Notes under the pieces: model-generated
The model's database searches: none
Seen by the model: the letters and a program-made list of their open reading frames with translations, nothing else
What the model was told of the DNA's origin: nothing
Position numbers and translations under genes: made by a program
In this document: positions 3,823-21,177 of the stretch, one piece after another
Position numbering within the stretch: position 1 is the first letter of the stretch
How the letters are laid out: every line of letters starts with the position of its first letter
Origin: a virus
Direction: 5' to 3' (one strand)
Length of the DNA: 21,177 bases
IMG/VR virus record: IMGVR_UViG_3300032235_000150
Span: 1-21,177 of that record

Positions 3823-5235
3823 TTAATAAATTATAATAACTGCACCAGTAGTGCCAGCAGCTGATGGCGCAGAACCTCCGCACCCAGCTCTATTAACACC
3901 TGAAGAACTCCACGTACCTGTTGCAAGTGTATATTGTTGTTCGCCTATAGTTATCATCTGCTGTCTCTGAGTAACAAAAGCAGAACCTACAAATTTATGA
4001 CGAAGTGCTAGAAGTCTAGTGGACCAGTCTGGTGTAGCAACATTTCCGGTATAAACCACAGAGTTAGGAATTAGGCAGGAGCCACTTCCAGCAACGCCTG
4101 TAACACCATTTTTTGGAAAACTAAATCCACTACCGCTACTAGCATTGGTACCGTTAGAACCACCAGTAGCACGGACGATAGGAGGGTTTATAATACTACC
4201 TCCTCTCCATACTGAAGAAGCACGCAAATTAGGCAATCCGTTTGTACCTACATTTACAGTTAACACTTCTGCAGGAGTAACAGGAATCTGCGCTATTATC
4301 AATCCTCCCGCACCACCTGCGCCACCAGAAAGTGTAGCACCTGTTTGATAATGTGTTGCATTAGCTCCGCCAGTTCCACCTCCTCCAGCAGCAATTACTG
4401 TAATAGAATTGACGCCTGCTGGTACAGTAAAGCTACCTGCAGTAGTAAATATTTGCAATCCGGTAGCTGTTTCTCCATTATACCCAGCTAAGAATAGTGC
4501 ACGTGACATTTCTTGCTCTGCTGCTGAAGTAGATGCTGCTGGCATAACTTCTCCGTAAACGTTTAAGTTTTGAGTTTTACCGTGCCCTACACTTAGTACA
4601 TAACCGCTTATTAACTGTCCTGCAACTCTCATTAAACCATAATTAAGAGGTACTGGAGTACCAGAGGCAGTACTATTAGTCAGAGATCCGAACATGTCGT
4701 TTTGTCTAGTATTTTCTTCGCTTGGTTTGCTAGCAAACATGGAAGATAGCAGTGCTAAGCCGATATTTACTACTAGATTTTGCAGAAAACCACCCATACC
4801 ACCTAGAGTACTAGCAATAGTACCGCCTATACCACCAGAAGCAGCTACCGTTGCACCTACAGGCGCAGCTGCTCCAGCTGCGGCAGCCCCTGCTGCGATT
4901 GGTAAGAATACGAACATAGCAACTGCTAGGGCTGCTAGTATTCCTCCACGTTTACCGCCACCACCTACAACTGCAGGAACTATATATATTACATCACCGT
5001 CACGAGCGTGTTTGAACTTGAGTTCATTAGGGTTGATTATCTTTAAGTTTTTGTCTAGAAACACAAAGCTTTCTTCTATTTTTTGTGCTCGCTGTATACG
5101 TAAGTAGTTTATAAAACGACGATGCATAGCATTAAGATAAAATAGAATATCATGGTAAGTTTTAAAGTCAGCTACATATTCTGTAGCTGAGAAGTACTTA
5201 CTAAATGATGAATGTGGCTTAATTGTTACTAACAA
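3823..5235 (-). CDS. I-like tail assembly protein with C-terminal glycine-rich adhesin-like domain
   Basis: The N-terminal ~100 residues look like lambda gpI (ubiquitin-like start, then a DGDVIYIVPAVVGGGGKRGG motif), followed by a long Ala/Gly hydrophobic stretch (about residues 99-168) typical of this family. After it comes SASGTPVP-type sequence (ASGTPVPLNYGLMRVAGQLI), where family members usually end. Here a glycine-rich extension of about 210 residues follows. It begins FTTAGSFTVPAGVNSITVIA and ends GTTGAVIIIY, the signature of glycine-rich domains on phage tail proteins. The frame opens at TTG 5259, but I prefer TTG 5235: a GAGGAAA ribosome-binding site lies 7-8 nt before it and the resulting MLVTIKPH start fits the family. 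That gives 470 residues and a 17-nt overlap with the JAMM gene. In the family the N-terminal part assists tip assembly with J; the extension's binding role is inferred. Confidence 0.85.
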   Translation of the reverse strand: MLVTIKPHSSFSKYFSATEYVADFKTYHDILFYLNAMHRRFINYLRIQRAQKIEESFVFLDKNLKIINPNELKFKHARDGDVIYIVPAVVGGGGKRGGILAALAVAMFVFLPIAAGAAAAGAAAPVGATVAASGGIGGTIASTLGGMGGFLQNLVVNIGLALLSSMFASKPSEENTRQNDMFGSLTNSTASGTPVPLNYGLMRVAGQLISGYVLSVGHGKTQNLNVYGEVMPAASTSAAEQEMSRALFLAGYNGETATGLQIFTTAGSFTVPAGVNSITVIAAGGGGTGGANATHYQTGATLSGGAGGAGGLIIAQIPVTPAEVLTVNVGTNGLPNLRASSVWRGGSIINPPIVRATGGSNGTNASSGSGFSFPKNGVTGVAGSGSCLIPNSVVYTGNVATPDWSTRLLALRHKFVGSAFVTQRQQMITIGEQQYTLATGTWSSSGVNRAGCGGSAPSAAGTTGAVIIIY

Positions 5236-5593
5236 GGTGAGTTTCCTCGAATTTCTCAAATTTTAGTGCGTCTACGTTACTATCATACCAATAAATATAG
5301 AACTTGTTATTAAATCCTACTAAGAATTTATAATTAGAAAAAGCAGCACTAGCTTTATCTTCAGAACTAGGAAGTGGGTTATCAGAACCTGGATGCGAGT
5401 GAAATATACCCCAAATATTTCCGTCATGTCTAACTAAGTCAGCTGGATCTAAGAAAAAGGTAAATTTAGGTTTGTCGCTTATATTCTTACAAGGTACATA
5501 GTTAAAATCTTTAGTGATAATACCTACACATTCTTTAGGGTACTCACGTAGTGAGTGTTTGTTCATGTCAGATAATAGTTTTACGTAGTCCAT
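5219..5593 (-). CDS. JAMM/Mov34 (MPN) metallopeptidase, K-like tail protein N-terminal half
   Basis: This 124-residue protein carries a complete JAB1/MPN+ metalloprotease signature: Glu21 in KECVGII, then His65-Ser-His67-Pro followed by Ser76-Ser-Glu-Asp79, which would bind zinc. In lambda the equivalent domain is the N-terminal half of gpK, fused to an NlpC/P60 domain. Here it is a stand-alone gene. The start ATG (5593) overlaps the end of the preceding NlpC-like gene by 13 nt and its stop overlaps the I-like gene, so translation is probably coupled. The neighbours place it in the tail tip, where it would process a tail protein or help cell-wall passage. The substrate cannot be read from the sequence. 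Confidence 0.88.
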   Translation of the reverse strand: MDYVKLLSDMNKHSLREYPKECVGIITKDFNYVPCKNISDKPKFTFFLDPADLVRHDGNIWGIFHSHPGSDNPLPSSEDKASAAFSNYKFLVGFNNKFYIYWYDSNVDALKFEKFEETHLVSNN

Positions 5594-6003
5594 CTATATA
5601 ATCCAGTAGTATATTGTTGATAATAGCTGCCATACGGGCTTATCCAGCTAGGTCTGTCAATCATGTTATGTATCATTTTATTATTTTCTAAGTACATAGC
5701 ACAATGGTTTGATATATTAGTAGAGCCTATGCTCATCAATATAAAATCAAACTTTTTTGGTTCGGATACTCGCTTCCAGTTATTGTCTGCTAGTGCAGAG
5801 TTCTCAAAAATAGAATCGCTTGTTTTATTGTACCAATCATCGTCTACTATATTACAACGATCAAAAGAGAAATAAGGTATATTTATACCCGTTTCTTCAT
5901 TATAAATATAGCGGCACAGATTAAAGCAATCCATGCCGCTTTTAGGATCATTACCTAAATGTTTATAAGGAATGTTTAAATACTTATCATACCATTTTGT
6001 CAT
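5581..6003 (-). CDS. NlpC/P60-like cysteine peptidase, second copy (tail tip)
   Basis: This 140-residue protein has the layout of phage-tail NlpC/P60 peptidoglycan hydrolases: catalytic Cys26 in SGMDCFNLCRYIY, a His100 in SNHCAMYL at the position of the family's catalytic histidine, and a third polar residue, His112, in NKMIH. The family cleaves peptide crosslinks in cell-wall peptidoglycan, and on a tail tip it would open the wall for DNA entry. It starts with an ATG (6003) inside the end of another NlpC-like gene (17-nt overlap) and overlaps the JAMM gene downstream. The Phe after Cys26 departs from the usual DCS, but the upstream neighbour differs in the same place, so this may be a feature of the subfamily. 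Family assignment is confident; enzymatic activity is inferred. Confidence 0.82.
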   Translation of the reverse strand: MTKWYDKYLNIPYKHLGNDPKSGMDCFNLCRYIYNEETGINIPYFSFDRCNIVDDDWYNKTSDSIFENSALADNNWKRVSEPKKFDFILMSIGSTNISNHCAMYLENNKMIHNMIDRPSWISPYGSYYQQYTTGLYRWTT

Positions 6004-6376
6004 GACGATATATCGCGTGTAAATGTTCCATCCAATAATCGGATAAAGTATCTACTCGAGAAGTATTCCCCTCTTCTACGTGCAGCATTTTATTCGGTTT
6101 AATATATAACCCGAAATGAATCAATAAGTTAGACTTCTTTGACTTAAAACTAATTAAATCATAATTTTTAGCGTCCGTCAATGAAACTTTTTTACCATAT
6201 TTAGATGCCCACTCATCTAAAAATTCTACAGTATATTTTTTCATCCATAACCTAGAATGAGGGTAAGCTGGTAAATTAAAACTGCAATTTAATTCATTTT
6301 CATAAAACTGTTGTACCAAAGTAACACAATCGTAACTTCCGTAACAGTGTTTAATTCCCAAATAGTTAGTAATCAT
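5987..6376 (-). CDS. NlpC/P60-like cysteine peptidase, first copy (tail tip)
   Basis: This 129-residue protein has catalytic Cys17 in YGSYDCVTLVQQFY, His87 in LLIHFGLYI and His99 in KMLHVEEGN, matching the Cys-His-polar triad order of NlpC/P60 domains. Its length equals a bare catalytic domain without a targeting domain. The start ATG overlaps the stop of the L-like gene in an ATGA arrangement (4 nt), which implies reinitiation by the same ribosomes. It is followed at once by a second, divergent NlpC-like gene. In lambda a single K protein combines the peptidase domains, so this locus has separated and duplicated them. The role, local peptidoglycan cleavage or tip assembly, is inferred from family and position. 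Confidence 0.84.
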   Translation of the reverse strand: MITNYLGIKHCYGSYDCVTLVQQFYENELNCSFNLPAYPHSRLWMKKYTVEFLDEWASKYGKKVSLTDAKNYDLISFKSKKSNLLIHFGLYIKPNKMLHVEEGNTSRVDTLSDYWMEHLHAIYRHDKMV

Positions 6377-8640
6377 GCTCGTGGTATTGTTCTGCCTACA
6401 CCAGGGAATCCGCCAAAATGTATACTGTTATTACGTACTGTACAAGCAGCTAATGATTTAGCACAAACATCTGAGCCGCTCTTATTAGCTAATGCAGAAG
6501 GAGAATAGCTAATAAGATCTGCTATACTTGGCTGACTACCATTAACTATATCAACTCTAGGATCATAGAATTGTTGGTTAGTTGAAGTATCACTAGAATA
6601 GTATAAATAACTTCTATGAAGAGCTTGTGTATTCAGAGTCTGCCACACAAAATCAGTCATAGTGGCTACCTTTGTACCGTTAGTTCTATAAATACCAGTA
6701 TCTACATACGCAGCTCCAGTACCGCTACCTGCAGGCCATACATGTCCTACTAATAACATCCATTCACTTGCTGCATAAGGCCAAGTAGCTGCATAAAAAT
6801 AAGGATTTGTATTAGTAGCGCCAGTACCTCTAATAAGTACTCCTATATTGCTTCCAACTGAGTTATAACCGTTTAGTCCTAAATATGTAGAACCATTACC
6901 AATCGTTTTTCGACGAATCCAAACTGAGAATCTGTATAGGCTAGAATTAGTTATTGGGAATAAAGAACCATTCCATCCGCCATCAGGAGCAGTACCATCG
7001 CCATCGCTAGCCCCAGCGTCTTGATTACTAACATCCCATACAGTCTGTAATTCTCCGTATGGTGTAGAATCTACAATACGAGAGTTTCCGTCCCCGTTTT
7101 GTGTATATCCTGTAGCAGAGCCAGCAGTACCAGCAATCCAAGAACTCATATTAATGATTGATGGGGATTTAATACTAGCTACTTGGTTGTCTAACCCAAT
7201 AGGATTAGTGTTTGAAGTTAGATTAGTTCCAGGAATAGCTAGGTTACCAGGTCCGGGATACTGACATTCTGGTCCTTTATACACCCATTGACAAGTGTTT
7301 TTATAAAACTTGCGTTTAGGAACAATAACCTTAAAGTACTGTAACCAAGATACTAGTGCAAAAGACGCTACATGATCAGACAGACTCTCTAACTGATCAA
7401 TTTTAAATCTATCTTCTATGTAACTTTCAGCATCTGCATCTTCATTTACGATATACAGAGCATCTCCTACAGCTGTACTAGAATTGATCTCATTGCTGAG
7501 ATAAATAATGTGGTCGTCGCTTATATGCTGAATTGTAGCTTGCTCTGATCCTTTAATAGACTTTACATTATCGCCTAAACGGTATGGTAAGGAGTTCTTA
7601 ACTGATATAGCATTAGCAGTTATAGCAGTAATTAAACTATACTCTGGCCAGAAGTCTAAAAAGTTAGCAAAAGTAGTTTTAATATTAACGATTCCGCCCA
7701 ATAGATCACGAGAATCTTCTTTATAAGCTTCCCAAGTACCGCTAACAGCTTTTGTTTGTTCATAAGTAAAACTAGCGTTATTCATACCATATAGATTTAC
7801 TATATCACCACTGTAAGCTAAACCGTTTGCACGAGCGCGTGTTAACGTGTCAAGACATTCTTGACTAATAGTAGCTGCTTGTGGAAGAGTTAAACTAACT
7901 GTACGAGGGTCTAAACCATGTACAAGTTCACCATTTACATGCGCTACTACTGAGTTAGTAGTATTATTACCAGATAAAAATGGGTCTTCTACTAAACGAG
8001 AAATCATGTTATCTACGTTGAATAGTGTAAGAGTAAGTTCATTTACTCTACCGTCAGAAGCTTGCTCTATACCGCTAATTGATACTGGGTACGGAGAGTA
8101 CGTAGTACCGCCGTAACTAACATTATAACTAATATCGTCGGCTAAATCGCCAACTATTTCTGCAAAACGTATTGGAAAATAAGGTGACCAAGCTCGCCCT
8201 TCTCCGGTTTCACCAGGATTTCCTGCCTCATTAGGTGGATACCATTCTCCAGGGTAGTACACAGAGTACAACCGCACAATTGGATTTTGTGTAAAAGCAT
8301 TCTTTTCGGCTATAAAAGTACTAGGCTGTATGTTAATTATATTAGTAACAGCAGTAACAACGTTACCACTCATAACATTTGCTTGGAACGGTAAATATGT
8401 GGAATCATTAATAGCACCATTAGCAGTACCGCTAATAGTTATAACTTTAGAGTATATATTTTCCGACCCTGTAAACTCACTAATAGCATTAGAAAGTTTA
8501 ACTTTAAGTAAATTGTTAGCTCTATCTATTCCTGCAATTATTCCAACGGCTGCAGAAGTATTACCAATAACTACATTACCTGTTTGAAATGGTAATGCGT
8601 TAGCTACGGTTAATACAACATCATATGTACGAGAAGTCAC
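6373..8640 (-). CDS. L-like minor tail protein with inserted domains and a split Cys4 (Fe-S) motif
   Basis: The protein (755 residues) starts at a GTG with AAAGGA six nt upstream. The L core is visible as SISGIEQASDGRVNELTLTL (residues 187-206) and DQLESLSDHVASFALVSWLQ (415-434), followed by Cys450-x8-Cys459 in CQWVYKGPECQYPG. The second cysteine pair, Cys726-x6-Cys733 in CAKSLAAC, and FGGFPG come only near the C-terminus. In lambda gpL these four cysteines bind an iron-sulfur cluster and sit close together. Here about 255 residues separate the pairs, rich in Trp, Tyr, Gly and Asn with short beta-strand runs (YRFSVWIRRK; YAASEWMLLVGHVW), which looks like a jelly-roll binding domain. Two related beta modules appear near residues 12-64 and 339-397. 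It sits between the M-like and NlpC genes, the lambda M-L-K order. Confidence 0.87.
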   Translation of the reverse strand: MTSRTYDVVLTVANALPFQTGNVVIGNTSAAVGIIAGIDRANNLLKVKLSNAISEFTGSENIYSKVITISGTANGAINDSTYLPFQANVMSGNVVTAVTNIINIQPSTFIAEKNAFTQNPIVRLYSVYYPGEWYPPNEAGNPGETGEGRAWSPYFPIRFAEIVGDLADDISYNVSYGGTTYSPYPVSISGIEQASDGRVNELTLTLFNVDNMISRLVEDPFLSGNNTTNSVVAHVNGELVHGLDPRTVSLTLPQAATISQECLDTLTRARANGLAYSGDIVNLYGMNNASFTYEQTKAVSGTWEAYKEDSRDLLGGIVNIKTTFANFLDFWPEYSLITAITANAISVKNSLPYRLGDNVKSIKGSEQATIQHISDDHIIYLSNEINSSTAVGDALYIVNEDADAESYIEDRFKIDQLESLSDHVASFALVSWLQYFKVIVPKRKFYKNTCQWVYKGPECQYPGPGNLAIPGTNLTSNTNPIGLDNQVASIKSPSIINMSSWIAGTAGSATGYTQNGDGNSRIVDSTPYGELQTVWDVSNQDAGASDGDGTAPDGGWNGSLFPITNSSLYRFSVWIRRKTIGNGSTYLGLNGYNSVGSNIGVLIRGTGATNTNPYFYAATWPYAASEWMLLVGHVWPAGSGTGAAYVDTGIYRTNGTKVATMTDFVWQTLNTQALHRSYLYYSSDTSTNQQFYDPRVDIVNGSQPSIADLISYSPSALANKSGSDVCAKSLAACTVRNNSIHFGGFPGVGRTIPRA

Positions 8641-15286: not shown

Positions 15287-16558
15287 TTATTTGTCAGCAA
15301 AAATAGTTACTTCTCCGCCGCCGCCTTTTGAAGCATTTGGTTCTTGAGCCATGAAGTTAACACTAACTGCAAGTACGTCTTCTACTGCTACCTGTGGGAA
15401 TTCAAATTGAACAGCAGGCATAGAGAATGCTACGTATGGAGCAGTAGCTCCACCAACAATTAAGTTAGCATTTGAAGTCTGCGCAGAAGAAGTACGAGAA
15501 TCTTGAATAATGTTTCTCATAAACTGTGTAGACTGGTTATCACCAGCACGTAGATACATAGTAGCAGAACCAGTGACTCCGCGTGTACCAACAAAGTTTC
15601 CAATTGGAGAGTTCAATGCTGATAGTTCTTCTGGAGTTAGGTATGTTAGGTTATTGTTATACTCAAAAGTAAGAGCGGTTACTGGGAATGTGTAAGTAAC
15701 TCCCGCAGCACCGGTAGATGGAGCGTGCTGGAAGTTAATAGAGCTTAATCTATTTTTAATGAAAGAGTTAGTAGCTAGAACACCAGCTACGTTCATTTGG
15801 TTATATGGGTGATAGCAAGCAACGTTGCTTAAGTTTAATGCGTTAGCATTTGCAGTCACAGTACTACCAGAGTTTAGAATACCACCAAATACTGATACAG
15901 CGTTGTTGCGTGGAACACCTGTAAGCTCTCTTAGAGTAGTACCGTTTCCAGCCCATGTAACAGTAGCGATTTCTTCAATTCCTGCGTCTACCACTGCGCT
16001 ATTTACAGCAGCATTAGATACCTGATAAATGATGTTATCAAGCTTAAAGTATAGATGCTGATCTTCTTGAGCTATAGCGTAGTTAGAACGAGTGCTGTGA
16101 GAACCAGTACCTGCAGCTGTGTTTACAGTAGCAAGTCTACCACCAGTTGCCCATACAGATTGATCTGCAGTTCCTGTAGATGCACGCGTATTTGACACTA
16201 GTGACTGCCACATGAACCAGTCAGCTACTGGCTTAACGTTTCCGCTAGCATTGGTAGATGCAGTAGTAGTTCCGGCAGCAGCACCTGTTTCTACGCCAGT
16301 TGGACGTAGATATACTTGGAAGTTCCACTCAACTGGGTTGACAGCTGTATTGAAGCGTTGCTGAGAACGATCAGGTGTAAGTCCTGATTCTAATGAAGTA
16401 ATATCTTGAGTAGCTGAAGACGCGCTAACAGCAAAACCTGCTAACACCTCTAGCTTCCAAGTGTTAGATGGTGTCATAGCAGATACTGCAGCACCACCTA
16501 GAAGGTCAACTGTAGAAAAGAAAACCTCAGAATTTCTTTGTAAATTAAGAGATGTCAT
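15287..16558 (-). CDS. Tail tube (major tail) protein, apparently internally duplicated
   Basis: At 423 residues this is about twice a lambda gpV core. It lies between the terminator and the tail chaperones and has the strongest ribosome-binding site of the region (AAGGAG, eight bases from the ATG, overlapping the upstream stop), as expected for a highly expressed structural protein. Two blocks look related: residues 52-86 (ITSLESGLTPD ... WNFQVYLRP) and 303-337 (LTYLTPEEL ... SATMYLRA), each followed after a loop by a hydrophobic strand pair (168-203 and 376-406). This suggests two tube domains in one chain, as in T5 pb6, which would form trimeric rings with pseudo-sixfold symmetry. The C-terminus is GGGGEVTIFADK. 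Tube identity is well supported; the duplication is by eye. Confidence 0.85.
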   Translation of the reverse strand: MTSLNLQRNSEVFFSTVDLLGGAAVSAMTPSNTWKLEVLAGFAVSASSATQDITSLESGLTPDRSQQRFNTAVNPVEWNFQVYLRPTGVETGAAAGTTTASTNASGNVKPVADWFMWQSLVSNTRASTGTADQSVWATGGRLATVNTAAGTGSHSTRSNYAIAQEDQHLYFKLDNIIYQVSNAAVNSAVVDAGIEEIATVTWAGNGTTLRELTGVPRNNAVSVFGGILNSGSTVTANANALNLSNVACYHPYNQMNVAGVLATNSFIKNRLSSINFQHAPSTGAAGVTYTFPVTALTFEYNNNLTYLTPEELSALNSPIGNFVGTRGVTGSATMYLRAGDNQSTQFMRNIIQDSRTSSAQTSNANLIVGGATAPYVAFSMPAVQFEFPQVAVEDVLAVSVNFMAQEPNASKGGGGEVTIFADK

Positions 16559-16570
16559 AATTTATTCTCC

Positions 16571-17026
16571 TTAATATTCTAGTCTATAGACTACTGATAA
16601 TTCTAATTCTGCTATTCCATAAGGAAATGCTAAACCTTCGTCAGCCGAGATATTTTCTATAGTTATATCTAATATCCCTTTTTCAGGTTCGTCACCAATA
16701 CTGTAAATTACATGTTCTATGTCTTCTACTAGATTGTCTGCCGCAGTTTGAGAATTATCTTCTCCATATACGTATGCTCTTATGATAACGTTTAATGTAG
16801 CTACCGTCAAATTTTCTGATTGAAAATTTCTAATTTCGGTTCCTGCTGATAAATATATAGAAGGAAAGTCATTTACTTCATCGAGAAATTTTATTTTACG
16901 ATATACATTGTTGAAAACATTGTGTTTGTATTGATAAATATTATCGTAGGTGGATGTACCACCATTAATATTTTTTAAATTAGTTACGAGAAAGTCCACA
17001 ATCTCAGTTCGTCGATTAAAAATCAT
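16571..17026 (-). CDS. Tail terminator protein (gpU-like)
   Basis: This 151-residue protein has the size, position and character of tail terminator proteins, which form the ring that ends tail tube growth and docks to the head. It begins with an amphipathic helix (RRTEIVDFLVTNL), carries alternating strands (ATLNVIIRAYVYGED near 75-90), a helix ADNLVEDIEHVIYSI, and closes with IAELELSVVYRLEY, a typical terminal strand. Its ATG overlaps the preceding gene's stop (ATGA), so it is translationally coupled to the neck protein. The tail tube gene follows after 12 nt. No catalytic motif is expected. The call relies mainly on synteny and fold-like pattern. Confidence 0.78.
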   Translation of the reverse strand: MIFNRRTEIVDFLVTNLKNINGGTSTYDNIYQYKHNVFNNVYRKIKFLDEVNDFPSIYLSAGTEIRNFQSENLTVATLNVIIRAYVYGEDNSQTAADNLVEDIEHVIYSIGDEPEKGILDITIENISADEGLAFPYGIAELELSVVYRLEY

Positions 17027-18318
17027 ACTCTATTACCTCTAACTATATTAAATTTCTGTGCATATAGTGATTGCGCTACTTCTCTAATAGCAGTTTCTAC
17101 TTGTAAGTCAGGTTTGTAACCGTAGTTACGCAGTGAGCTATATAGTGGATTATAAATATACTGTAAAGTGCTAGTTCTATAGTTTGCAAAAACCTGAACA
17201 CTGCTTCTAAAACGACCACTACGCTCTTTTAGGTCTGGTGGCTCCGGCTCACCGAGCCGTAGCATAGTTTCTCCAAGGCGTTTTTGTGTTAATACAGTCC
17301 ACTGAACACCTGATATAAATGATTGCTTAGAAGTTTGCTGTTTTGTAGTTGTTTTGACTGTTGCTGTACCTACAAAAGTGTCAGAAGGTCTTACCTTTAT
17401 ACTTTTTGTTATCTCAGCCCCGAATACTTGAGAACCTTTTAAAGCAGGCAATAAATCTATTGTAAATGTTTGCTTTTTATTTGTTACTTTTACTTTTTGT
17501 ACTTCAGAGGTCGTGTCTTGTAAAAACTTAATATAGTCTTTATCTATTACGTTAAATATTCTTTTTTGAAAAGAATCATTAATTGATACTATAATAGCAT
17601 TGCCTTCTATAGTTGCTTTAAAGTTGTTAGAATTAAAATCAGATAGAGGAAACTGAATACCTATGAGTCTTGTACCCGAAACTTTATTTCCATTAGATTC
17701 TAATGAATAAATGTTGTTTAATACCATAGTACTTGCTTTAGAGTAGAATAACTGTTTAAGTCTGGGTTCTTTAACCATGTAGTAATTAAAAACCCTATTT
17801 GTAACAGCTTTAGTATCTCTATTTTTTGCTTGCTTATTTCTTTGGTCTGTAAAATACGGATCTAAGTCAATTAAATAACCTTCTTTAACAGTAGTTAAAA
17901 GTTTTTCAGATAACTCTGATCCTTTTATAGGCTCAGCACCTTCTACTTGATATTCTACATTTCTTTTAAAGCTACCAGTACTAAGAGTTATCTGACCGAT
18001 TTTAGTACCTTTGAAAGCACCGGCTAAAGCTTTAAATTCAACAGAAGTAACAGCAGAAGATTCGGTTACCTCTTGCTTGAATAGATCTAATATAGGAGAC
18101 GCAGGGCTCAGTACAAAGTCAGTTACCTGACTTTGTCCAAGTTTACCTTGTACTAAGCTAGCTTTTAAAAGTCTAGCAGTTTTCTGCTCTAAATAGCGTT
18201 GAATTGAGTCAGCGGCTTTTTTATTCTTATTTGCGAGTGCAGAAATATAAGAACGAGTTAATGCATCAAATTCCGGTATTCCAGTAATATCTACAGAAAA
18301 CAGTCTTATATTAGCCAT
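17023..18318 (-). CDS. Neck / tail-completion protein (HK97 gp10- or Z-like) with large central insertion
   Basis: Position between the head-tail adaptor and the tail terminator points to the gp10/Z-like neck protein. The N-terminal helix (ISALANKNKKAADSIQRYLE, about 25-44) and a C-terminal part with KERSGRFRSSVQV (364-376), a Tyr-rich strand and RNYGYKPDLQVETAIREVAQ fit that family, in which the 'R-S/T-G-x-L/F-R-x-S' site is usual. The family is normally 120-150 residues; this one is 431, and about 300 extra residues lie between the two conserved ends. The insertion is beta-rich with no recognised domain. Its ATG overlaps the adaptor stop by one base (TAATG). Neck role is likely; the exact family is less certain. 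Confidence 0.65.
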   Translation of the reverse strand: MANIRLFSVDITGIPEFDALTRSYISALANKNKKAADSIQRYLEQKTARLLKASLVQGKLGQSQVTDFVLSPASPILDLFKQEVTESSAVTSVEFKALAGAFKGTKIGQITLSTGSFKRNVEYQVEGAEPIKGSELSEKLLTTVKEGYLIDLDPYFTDQRNKQAKNRDTKAVTNRVFNYYMVKEPRLKQLFYSKASTMVLNNIYSLESNGNKVSGTRLIGIQFPLSDFNSNNFKATIEGNAIIVSINDSFQKRIFNVIDKDYIKFLQDTTSEVQKVKVTNKKQTFTIDLLPALKGSQVFGAEITKSIKVRPSDTFVGTATVKTTTKQQTSKQSFISGVQWTVLTQKRLGETMLRLGEPEPPDLKERSGRFRSSVQVFANYRTSTLQYIYNPLYSSLRNYGYKPDLQVETAIREVAQSLYAQKFNIVRGNRV

Positions 18319-19655
18319 TAATCAATAATCCTATAAAGATCTAGAATACGACGAATATGTGGAGGGAAGTTACCAGCAAGCGGGAATTGGTCACCACGTT
18401 CACCTTCAAAACTAAAGCCCTTCTTTTCTTGATCTTGTTTATACAATAGTTTTACGTAATCAATTGTAGCTACTTGTAAATCTAATGGAACACTTCCAGC
18501 TTCATAGCCTGCACGGTAAGTTACTTCTACAGCACTAGGGAATGGCTGGAAAGCTTGAGGACCAGAAAGAGTTAATGCAGGATATGATTTTCTTATAGAA
18601 GTAAAATTACCTGTTACTCCTAAGCTACCAGTATCCTTAGTTATCTCACCAGTATCTTTAGCAAAGTTATATTCGGCAGGTTTTGAATGAACATCTTTAA
18701 ACTGAGTTGAATTATTTCTCTCGTCAAAATGCACTAGTAAAGCAGTATCGTCATCGGTGCGGAATCTAAAAGCAGATGGTGTAAAACTATTAATATATCT
18801 TTGAGTAGTAGATACGCGAACCTCATCAATGTAACCCTTAAGTGTGTTACCTATAGTAACAACATTAGAGAATGATAAAGAATCTACTGTATAGGCACTA
18901 TTTGCTATCTGAGTACCGTTATAAAATAGGTACAGTCTCTCAGTTTCATAGTTTCTAGATACGGCCACGTGAGCCCAACGCTTCTTAGCGAACTGTTGTG
19001 CTTCAATGCTTGTATTAGCTCCTCTTACAGTAGTAGTCGACCCTGCAACAGTGCTAGTAAAAGCTAACCCGTACTGATTTGCTAAACTAAATCTCATATA
19101 ATTAGAGACATTAGTAGATATTTCAAATAGCACATTATCTCGTAAAAATGGTTCATCTACTTTTACATACATTTCTATAGTAAAATCAGATTTATCTAAC
19201 TGTAGTTGCTCAGGTACAATTGGAGAGTATATGTAACTAGTTTCATCTACCTCAAGAGCTGATTTTCCAAAGCGTTTAACTTTTGTAGTATTTTTAGCAG
19301 TACCAACTGCAGTAAAAGATACACTCTGACTGCTAGTATGTACAGGAGACCCAGTAACTGTGGGGTCGGATAATAGGATATTTTCTACTCCGTTAAACTC
19401 AGATACTTGGTACACCTTAGTTAATGGCAAGCGGCTAACAAATACAGAAGATACTCCTCCGTCGAATATCTCTACATAATCGTTAGCTAGTATTTCTTGT
19501 CCTATATAGTGCTCTATAACTCCGCTAGCGTAAGAGATAATATTAGACAGCCTAGCGTCTTGAGTATTGCTAGAAATGCTTAAATAATCTTTAACTTGAG
19601 CAAGAGTTATATAGGTATTCTTTCCTAAATTTTCTTCAAAACTATCTGCTGTCAT
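18318..19655 (-). CDS. Head-tail adaptor (gp6-like) interrupted by a laminin-G-like domain
   Basis: Residues 15-90 (YITLAQVKDYLSI ... SYASGVIEHYIGQEI ... LPLTKVYQVSEFNG) and 355-445 (VEVTYRAGYEAGSVPLDLQ ... YVKLLYKQ ... PPHIRRILDLYRI) are the two halves of an HK97 gp6/DUF-type head-tail connector, which forms a ring below the portal. Between them, about residues 125-312, sits a LamG/concanavalin-like jelly roll: FGKSALEVDE, FTIEMYVKVDEP, KRWAHVAVSRNYETERLYLF, YNGTQIA and LKGYIDEVRVST are its usual strand landmarks. The insertion lies in the loop where the usual protein has a short turn. It follows the capsid gene after a hairpin-containing gap. Connector and LamG calls are both strong; a surface-binding role on the neck is inference. 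Confidence 0.88.
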   Translation of the reverse strand: MTADSFEENLGKNTYITLAQVKDYLSISSNTQDARLSNIISYASGVIEHYIGQEILANDYVEIFDGGVSSVFVSRLPLTKVYQVSEFNGVENILLSDPTVTGSPVHTSSQSVSFTAVGTAKNTTKVKRFGKSALEVDETSYIYSPIVPEQLQLDKSDFTIEMYVKVDEPFLRDNVLFEISTNVSNYMRFSLANQYGLAFTSTVAGSTTTVRGANTSIEAQQFAKKRWAHVAVSRNYETERLYLFYNGTQIANSAYTVDSLSFSNVVTIGNTLKGYIDEVRVSTTQRYINSFTPSAFRFRTDDDTALLVHFDERNNSTQFKDVHSKPAEYNFAKDTGEITKDTGSLGVTGNFTSIRKSYPALTLSGPQAFQPFPSAVEVTYRAGYEAGSVPLDLQVATIDYVKLLYKQDQEKKGFSFEGERGDQFPLAGNFPPHIRRILDLYRIID

Positions 19656-19732: not shown

Positions 19733-21103
19733 TTAGCCTGTTACAACTGTTACAGCGTATGGATACTTGGTAGAATCTAGTGCTGCACCAGAGTTTGTAG
19801 TTAGAGCCTTGAAGTCGAAACGAGTGCTCATGTACATAGCAGTTACTTGCTGACGTGGTTCGTACTCGCTTTCAATTTCAATACCACGACGTTCAGCAAT
19901 TAGGAAGCCTGGCTTGTATAGTAGTACACCGATGTGGTTACCAGTAGAACCTACGTTATCTAGGAATTCAGAGATAGCGATAGGAATACCGTATACGGCA
20001 CCTACGGAACCTGTTAGATAAGTAGCGTTTGGACCAAACTTATCAACAGTGCGGAAGTCTGCAGTTGTTACTAGATTGTTATATCCTTCGATAGAAGTGA
20101 TATATACTAGGTCGTTACCTAGTTGTAGACCGTACTTACCCATTGCAGTACGAGCTGCAGCGATATCAGATGGATCTACTTTATCTGTAGAAGAACCAGT
20201 TGGAACTGTTAGGGATGCGTCACCAGTTAGATTGGTGATACCTTCGATAACAGAAGCGTAACCAGCGCCTGCTGTGATAGAGTTAGTTGGGGATGCGGTG
20301 AAGCCTGTTAGAGCGCCAGTACCACGTAGGATGGACTTGTCGATAGCACGAGCTAGACGACGAGTTGCAGCTGCACGTAGGAAGTCTAGTAGAGGTAGAA
20401 CTGTGTCTTCTTCTTCATCCTTAGCTAGGTGAGTTGTTGCCATAAACTTATGTGGTGTAAATTCTACTGCGCCAATAGAGTTCTGGTTAGATACTGGAAC
20501 GTTTGTAGTGTCGCCAATACCAGTTGCATAAGTACCAGAACGGAACATTGCAACATCGCCATCTTTATCTTCGTCAGCTACTGGAACGCGGAATGTCTTG
20601 GCGTCTACAGGTAGACGTGTGAACATTGGAGCAATTACTAGTTGCTGTTCCATTTCTGTGTAAATATTCTGAGAGAAGTTAGATAGGAACTGATCAACAG
20701 TAGTTACAGCCTTCATGCGATTGCCGTACTTTGTGTCGAATACGTCGCGCTTGTTTAGCATTTTTGCTAGAAGCACTGCGTTTGCCATTTCTTTCTCAGA
20801 GAATTGGTTAGAAGTACGAGAATTTTCTGCATATAGCATTTTGCTGTTTTGTAGAGCTTTAATCTCGTCTCTGTACTTAGAAATTTGAGACTTTAGCTCA
20901 GAAACTTCTTCAGTATTTGTTGGTGTATACTCACCATATTTGTCTTTTGCATCAGCTTCTTTAATGATAGCTTCACCAGTTTTTTCAACTAGATCAGCAA
21001 CTCTAGGCGCTGAGACAGTAGCTGTGGCTACGTCTTTTTTAGCCTCGACCTGCTCAGCTTTTACTGCGCTAATGTCGATTGATTCTACGACTTGTTCAGC
21101 CAT
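19733..21103 (-). CDS. HK97-fold major capsid protein
   Basis: This 456-residue protein is the major head subunit. Residues 1-120 are charged and helical, with a likely coiled coil near 63-90 (EEVSELKSQISKYRDEIKAL), matching the delta/scaffold region of HK97-like capsids that a protease removes. The core follows with FTPHKFMATTHLAKDEEEDT and a long spine helix LPLLDFLRAAATRRLARAID then ILRGTG, the usual capsid pattern. The C-terminal part has EYEPRQQVTAMYMSTRFD. The ATG at 21103 has AAAGGAG about nine bases upstream and is the chosen start, but the same frame stays open without a stop to the window edge, so a fusion with an upstream protein such as a prohead protease cannot be excluded. Confidence 0.93.
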   Translation of the reverse strand: MAEQVVESIDISAVKAEQVEAKKDVATATVSAPRVADLVEKTGEAIIKEADAKDKYGEYTPTNTEEVSELKSQISKYRDEIKALQNSKMLYAENSRTSNQFSEKEMANAVLLAKMLNKRDVFDTKYGNRMKAVTTVDQFLSNFSQNIYTEMEQQLVIAPMFTRLPVDAKTFRVPVADEDKDGDVAMFRSGTYATGIGDTTNVPVSNQNSIGAVEFTPHKFMATTHLAKDEEEDTVLPLLDFLRAAATRRLARAIDKSILRGTGALTGFTASPTNSITAGAGYASVIEGITNLTGDASLTVPTGSSTDKVDPSDIAAARTAMGKYGLQLGNDLVYITSIEGYNNLVTTADFRTVDKFGPNATYLTGSVGAVYGIPIAISEFLDNVGSTGNHIGVLLYKPGFLIAERRGIEIESEYEPRQQVTAMYMSTRFDFKALTTNSGAALDSTKYPYAVTVVTG

Positions 21104-21177
21104 TTTGTCGTTCTCCTTTGTTGAATCTTCGTGAAGCTTTTCTGTAAGATTTGTTTCTGAAATCTTGTCTTCACTTA
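21104..21177 (-). other. 74-base segment upstream of the capsid start, in-frame and open
   Basis: The frame of the capsid protein continues upstream to the window edge as 24 sense codons (SEDKISETNLTEKLHEDSTK and then ENDK), acidic and Lys-rich. The other two frames contain stops at the very edge (TAA or TGA), so this may be the tail of an upstream gene or an N-terminal extension of the capsid. The capsid ribosome-binding site AAAGGAG lies within it. Confidence 0.5.

Follow-up and report, generated by a model that had tools for sequence, protein, structure and literature searches.

A laminin-G-like domain inserted in a T5-type head completion protein behaves as an exchangeable module in uncultured siphophages

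Adaptor rings of tailed phages are viewed as plumbing of the DNA channel, and contact with the host is credited to tail tips and fibres. The locus described here has an adaptor gene with a laminin-G-like (LamG) domain in its middle. The window analysed, 21,177 nucleotides of IMG/VR record IMGVR_UViG_3300032235_000150, comes from an uncultured siphophage and holds on its minus strand a structural block of the major capsid protein (MCP), adaptor, tail completion protein (TCP), terminator (TrP), major tail protein (MTP), chaperones, tape measure and lambda-type tail-tip proteins. The order MCP-adaptor-TCP-TrP-MTP matches that of Kamaji and D51. Through capsid and major tail protein the nearest cultured relatives are T5-like phages, at ~27% identity; searches for cultured relatives with the adaptor halves returned weak matches alone (E 0.4 or worse), mostly to T5-like Vibrio phages, and a search of bacterial genome contigs for a host gave 51 pattern matches with no relatives among them. 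The head and neck genes of the block are the following.

19733-21103, minus strand: major capsid protein of HK97 fold, probably truncated at the end of the window (PF05065, 5e-15; T5-like relatives 27% identical; open frame of relatives longer)
18318-19655, minus strand: 445-aa head completion protein or head-tail adaptor that bears the LamG insert (one open frame; Pfam and PHROG matches; 125 full-length homologues among the loci listed)
17023-18318, minus strand: tail completion protein (TCP / Ne1), 431 aa (follows the adaptor on the same strand; gene order shared with Kamaji and D51; PF25747 T5_p143 and phrog_3725 matched by relatives)
16571-17026, minus strand: tail tube terminator (PF23818, 4.7e-21)
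15287-16558, minus strand: major tail protein, T5-like (phrog_3575, 7e-46; T5-like relatives 27% identical)

Other genes of the block have features of their own. The capsid open frame of relatives runs to ~860-930 aa, far longer than the capsid fold (19733-21177, minus strand), and is possibly a protease/scaffold-capsid fusion. A tail protein L homologue (ORF 6373-8640) carries an extra domain of ~230 aa at 6556-7245 (minus strand), apparently between its two cysteine pairs. This domain has no match in Pfam or PHROG; a hypothetical protein encoded by Phage C48C1 shares 47% identity with it, and virion proteins of Vibrio jumbo phages ~33%. A tail assembly protein I-like ORF at 3823-5259 (minus strand; phrog_32, 4e-18) is extended at its C terminus by a glycine-rich region (a weak match to PF21722 at 0.0079; phrog_863, phrog_4474), and at 5219-6376 (minus strand) a 129-aa ORF (5987-6376) neighbours JAB (Prok-JAB) and NlpC/P60 genes, beside the tail tip genes.

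The first-pass annotation had read the adaptor as two gp6-like halves separated by a LamG domain at 18720-19283, which corresponds to residues 125-312 of the uninterrupted 445-aa frame, and Pfam, phrog_442 and hhalign all agree with this division. Three Pfam families exceed their curated cut-offs: Phage_connect_1 (gp6-like) at residues 16-55 (E 5.7e-5), Laminin_G_3 at residues 148-283 (E 1e-13; 52.1 bits against a cut-off of 27.6) and HCP (PF24163) at residues 375-442 (E 4.8e-10). The N- and C-terminal halves match positions 82-163 and 186-262 of the 'head-tail adaptor' profile phrog_442, scoring 84.3 bits as one stretch when joined and 42.8 and 40.7 bits separately. With hhalign, a profile of the joined halves aligned along the whole length of the T5-type head completion proteins (HCPs) of DT57C, Kamaji and D51 (probability 96.4, E 1.3e-9); with LamG left in the profile the C-terminal half alone aligned (probability 70.8, E 3.8e-5). 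The adaptor family profile also matches PDB chains 8hqo_R (E 0.0025) and 9ilp_a (E 0.0065), both named 'Head completion protein'. The gp6-type relationship proposed for the joined halves is thus upheld, with T5-type head completion proteins as the specific relatives.

In DT57C the HCP is a dodecamer whose domain DI (residues 1-43 and 112-170), helical with a lumen hairpin, faces the lumen and the TCP, while DII (44-111) forms a small beta-barrel (PMC10713586). Because the T5-type hairpin NDKEIDPEQYKLYSDGVIL, as it stands in DT57C, maps by sequence comparison to FNGVENILLSD, the insert and then KPAEYNFAKDTGEI, the second part of this correspondence being backed by hhalign, we place the LamG region within DII at about residues 105-325, so that the domain reported at residues 125-312 is present there but extends further on both sides. 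The 445-aa protein is a T5-type head completion protein, a gp6-like adaptor, with a LamG/ConA-like jelly roll inserted in its predicted DII, and by this alignment its parts are as follows.

19344-19616, minus strand: adaptor N-terminal half, residues 14-104, with helices 18-25 and 34-51 and the first part of the DII beta domain (phrog_442 positions 82-163; Phage_connect_1 above cut-off; hhalign to T5-type HCP)
18681-19343, minus strand: inserted LamG/ConA-like domain, residues 105-325 (Laminin_G_3, E 1e-13; AlphaFold2; VIA Z; identity drop at residues 101-330 in discordant pairs)
18321-18680, minus strand: adaptor C-terminal half, residues 326-445, restarting at PAEYNFAKDTGEI, with helices 391-410 and 432-441 (PF24163 HCP; phrog_442 positions 186-262; profile match to 8hqo_R and 9ilp_a)

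AlphaFold2 modelled the LamG region as a beta-sandwich with a pLDDT of ~90 over most of the domain, and the best matches of the model among solved folds were 4dqa, a putative carbohydrate-binding protein (Z 16.7), the arabinanase AbnA 5hp6 (Z 16.7) and 5hon, the arabinan-binding domain 4 of AbnA with ligand (Z 16.5), followed by pentraxins and CBM40. Overall, Z scores of 15-17 to LamG, pentraxin and carbohydrate-binding folds extended over 150-180 residues, in keeping with the carbohydrate-binding type of fold assigned to the domain at first. A fold shared with carbohydrate-binding proteins does not prove binding, and LamG domains also serve protein-protein contacts. Over much of the adaptor part pLDDT was low, with helices predicted at 18-25, 34-51, 391-410 and 432-441, and a Foldseek search with the whole model was uninformative on the adaptor fold, its result rows being filled by LamG matches. 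The orientation of LamG in the neck rests on homology because the adaptor part of the model is of low confidence. An exterior position had been proposed for it, and this fits an insert in DII of a T5-type HCP, the counterpart of which lies on the outer neck surface in some other adaptors. Both here and in a cyanophage S-B64 protein LamG finishes, at its C-terminal end, with the strand LLVHFD...FKDVH, which the single-domain LamG of a Nodularia phage has at the N-terminal end; this order of elements suggests that the domain is circularly permuted here, perhaps having originated from a tandem array.

The insertion is a conserved feature of the family. Two IMG/VR scans yielded the best 80 of 112 and the best 80 of 179 relatives' loci; among the loci listed 125 of the 126 complete frames, which represent 87 distinct proteins, are 440-450 aa long and carry the insert, the remaining frame (L023) being broken, so that the same insertion does occur in related phages. 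No close relative without LamG was found among these loci, and T5-type phages alone can stand in for the insert-free form. A 446-aa 'putative structural protein' of an uncultured virus, A0A218MK94, aligns with the adaptor over its full length at 41% identity. Searches of the literature for LamG in head completion proteins and for hypervariable phage LamG found no description, in line with the earlier remark that no standard account of this architecture is known; a LamG-bearing T5-type adaptor is a real and conserved architecture, apparently undescribed so far.

Across relatives the inserted domain is far less constant than the ring that carries it. Mean pairwise identity was 0.79 in the adaptor N-terminal half (residues 16-104) and 0.76 in the C-terminal half against 0.54 in the LamG region. 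Phages that are almost the same in the capsid (95-98% identity) and in the adaptor halves (95-99%) differ by 65-70% in the LamG core. L079 and L055 are one such pair of loci: their LamG cores are 30% identical, whereas identity is 98% for the MCP, 99% for each adaptor half and 97% for terminator and tail tube. In a second pair, L068 and L015, it is 98% for the capsid, 97% for each half and 35% for the LamG core. In ten discordant pairs identity was ~0.9-1.0 through residue 100, dropped from residue 101 to a minimum of 0.16-0.5 and stood again at 0.95 from residue 331. The DNA of L079 and L055 is 38-78% identical within LamG compared with 97-100% across most upstream sequence, and dS, which is 0.18 and 0.27 in the two flanks, reached 1.17 in LamG. 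LamG sequences of class B form a single clade on the LamG tree (support 99), while their carriers are spread over three distinct clades of the backbone tree, all of them interleaved with class A, which requires at least three exchanges; class A/B labels change six times on the backbone tree and twice on the LamG tree. LamG is therefore a module exchanged among these viruses, with breakpoints at the domain edges and the ring halves left nearly unchanged. Within lineages dN/dS in LamG was mostly 0.05-0.15, indicating purifying selection, and positive selection was not seen within lineages by this measure; the domain is thus kept functional and owes its diversity to exchange.

The gene that follows the adaptor is also divided into constant and variable parts. 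The C-terminal ~110 residues of the TCP are conserved, while the N-terminal ~320 form 17 BLAST groups in 57 loci, merged by profile comparison into ~4 classes, and are more variable than LamG.

17359-18318, minus strand: hypervariable N-terminal domain of the TCP, residues ~1-320, probable PD-(D/E)XK nuclease with E44, D67 and E94-x-K96 (invariant residues; predicted fold of L055)

In the best-populated class the model of the L055 protein has a folded alpha/beta N-terminal domain that a disordered linker joins to the C-terminal TCP domain. The leading structural matches of its N-terminal domain, all with Z < 8, were MvaI (6.7), BcnI (6.2), NhoI (5.4), MutH (4.8) and NaeI (4.7), so that mostly restriction endonucleases together with MutH are returned by the model, with scores that are modest and consistent. 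D73, E105 and K107 are kept in 23/23 members of one class; E44, D67, E94 and K96 are invariant in 11/11 members of the class to which the window belongs, the window included; and D...ExK is kept in about 16/17 of a third class, the exception being L034, whose TCP (L034:2148-3338) seems to lack the D...ExK of its class and is perhaps an inactive copy. The D...ExK signature together with the predicted fold suggests that the N-terminal domain is probably a PD-(D/E)XK nuclease; no published account of such a domain on a TCP was found. No further loci were confirmed for the window's own N-terminal domain, and a search for cognate methyltransferases found no PF01555 or PF00145 in 11 contigs, all of them partial. 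TCPs are essential virion parts normally of 112-255 aa, and that of SPP1 ensures DNA entry into the cell (PMC11099176). LamG and the TCP domain were considered as an obligate pair, which is ruled out by the independent swapping of the two cassettes: L117 and L110 have identical LamG domains with TCP N-terminal domains of no detectable similarity, and L079 and L061 are 30% identical in the LamG core and 80% identical in the TCP N-terminal domain.

The most likely role of LamG, judged from this combined evidence, would be to project from the neck and bind a variable glycan or surface. Twelve LamG domains would ring the outside of the neck, on an adaptor that by analogy would be a dodecamer under the portal, and would serve as accessory adhesins for a glycan or another variable partner outside the virion. 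Candidate partners include a host polysaccharide, or debris and matrix that would hold virions close to hosts, to the presumed benefit of the virus. A partner that varied by host or habitat would lead LamG alleles to recombine while the ring-forming halves stayed fixed. We give a little better than an even chance to this reading as a whole, that is, a DII-inserted LamG outside the neck that binds a glycan or other variable partner and whose alleles are exchanged.

The main rival, which we regard as unlikely, is that LamG braces the capsid. The first-pass annotation had taken adaptor rings to be normally minimal, which does not hold in every case: phage 812 has an adaptor with a beta-sandwich on the outer neck surface that contacts the capsid, Mycofy1 has an adaptor with a beta-sandwich domain (PMC12886913), and the Ig-like domain of the R4C adaptor contacts the capsid, its authors judging a role in adsorption unlikely (PMC10276861). 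The capsid-contacting domains of R4C and 812 are structural precedents for bracing at the same general position on the neck as the domain added here, and retention of LamG in nearly all complete homologues among the loci listed is in its favour. A bracing contact should however co-vary with the capsid, whereas LamG cores 30-35% identical occur alongside MCPs of 95-98% and adaptor halves of 95-99% identity. Change in LamG on a constant capsid is better explained by an external partner that varies, most likely a glycan, than by bracing.

We consider it decidedly unlikely that LamG instead serves to dock some other protein of the virion, for instance a whisker, a decoration protein or the TCP through its variable N-terminal domain. 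The neighbouring TCP domain is likewise hypervariable, identity in the LamG core correlates weakly with that in the TCP N-terminal domain when the adaptor is controlled for (partial r 0.146, with 0/500 permutations as high), and neck decoration proteins of phage 812 touch putative whiskers (PMC12886913); against this stands the independent swapping of the two modules. More improbable again is that LamG is a neutral or mildly useful hitch-hiker in a permissive surface loop, exchanged merely via flanking homology, as might be expected from the frequency of LamG additions in marine phage virion proteins and from the other extra domains in tail proteins of this phage, since purifying selection acts on LamG within lineages and its loss is absent from 125/126 complete homologues among the loci listed. 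That a sequencing or assembly error fused two proteins, the concern voiced in the first-pass annotation, has next to no probability and nothing found in its favour, being refuted by 125 full-length frames in many contigs among the loci listed and by purifying selection on LamG.

Under the preferred reading, LamG as an exchangeable adhesin, the neck may be a second site at which the virus contacts its surroundings. The swapping of a lectin-type module in an adaptor gene, with capsid and ring near constant, suggests that the neck as well is under selection for recognition, and module exchange together with a nuclease-like neighbour adds interest beyond the insertion alone. The variable nuclease-like TCP is relevant to the way in which proteins of this kind guide DNA into the cell, and it may point to DNA cutting by a virion component. 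A broader and rather doubtful proposal is that the neck would be a second exchangeable contact and effector organ, in which a swappable lectin ring would sit beside a swappable TCP-fused nuclease whose target would be DNA in the neck channel or, after entry into the cell, that of the host or of rivals, the modules varying independently on a near-constant backbone.

The known systems compared with this locus each share part of its organisation. T5-type HCPs (DT57C gp120, PDB 8hqo; PF24163, phrog_442) align along their whole length with both halves of the adaptor, and T5-type loci have the same gene order of capsid, HCP, TCP, terminator and tail tube; their HCP is however 170 aa long, compared with 445 aa here, where a 220-residue LamG in DII and an extra stretch at ~340-372 are added. 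The Ig-like attachment domain of the R4C / RcGTA type and the beta-sandwich of 812 and Mycofy1 are likewise beta domains added to a neck adaptor, but the Ig-like domain of R4C is N-terminal whereas the domain added here is a LamG internal to DII and is swapped among phages that are otherwise nearly identical; for the R4C, RcGTA-type, 812 or Mycofy1 adaptors no record of a LamG was found. LamG is present in tail fibres and other virion components of jumbo phages according to a review, and the closest LamG sequences are those of cyanophage virion proteins (S-B64; phrog_701, phrog_13163), with ~33% identity to that of S-B64, in which the elements follow the same order and the LLxHFD strand comes last, at the C terminus. 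In PHROGs these cyanophage proteins are large virion structural or baseplate wedge proteins and not head completion proteins. The head completion nuclease of T4, gp4, a virion-associated nuclease with a restriction-endonuclease fold acting at head completion, is a functional precedent for the TCP N-terminal domain (PMC7824862), although the nuclease-like domain here is fused to a tail completion protein and is hypervariable. Recognition modules of receptor-binding proteins show the same divergent alleles on near-identical backbones with breakpoints at domain edges as LamG does here; receptor-binding proteins are however products of tail tip and tail fibre genes, and LamG, lying in a head completion gene, is not filed among them.
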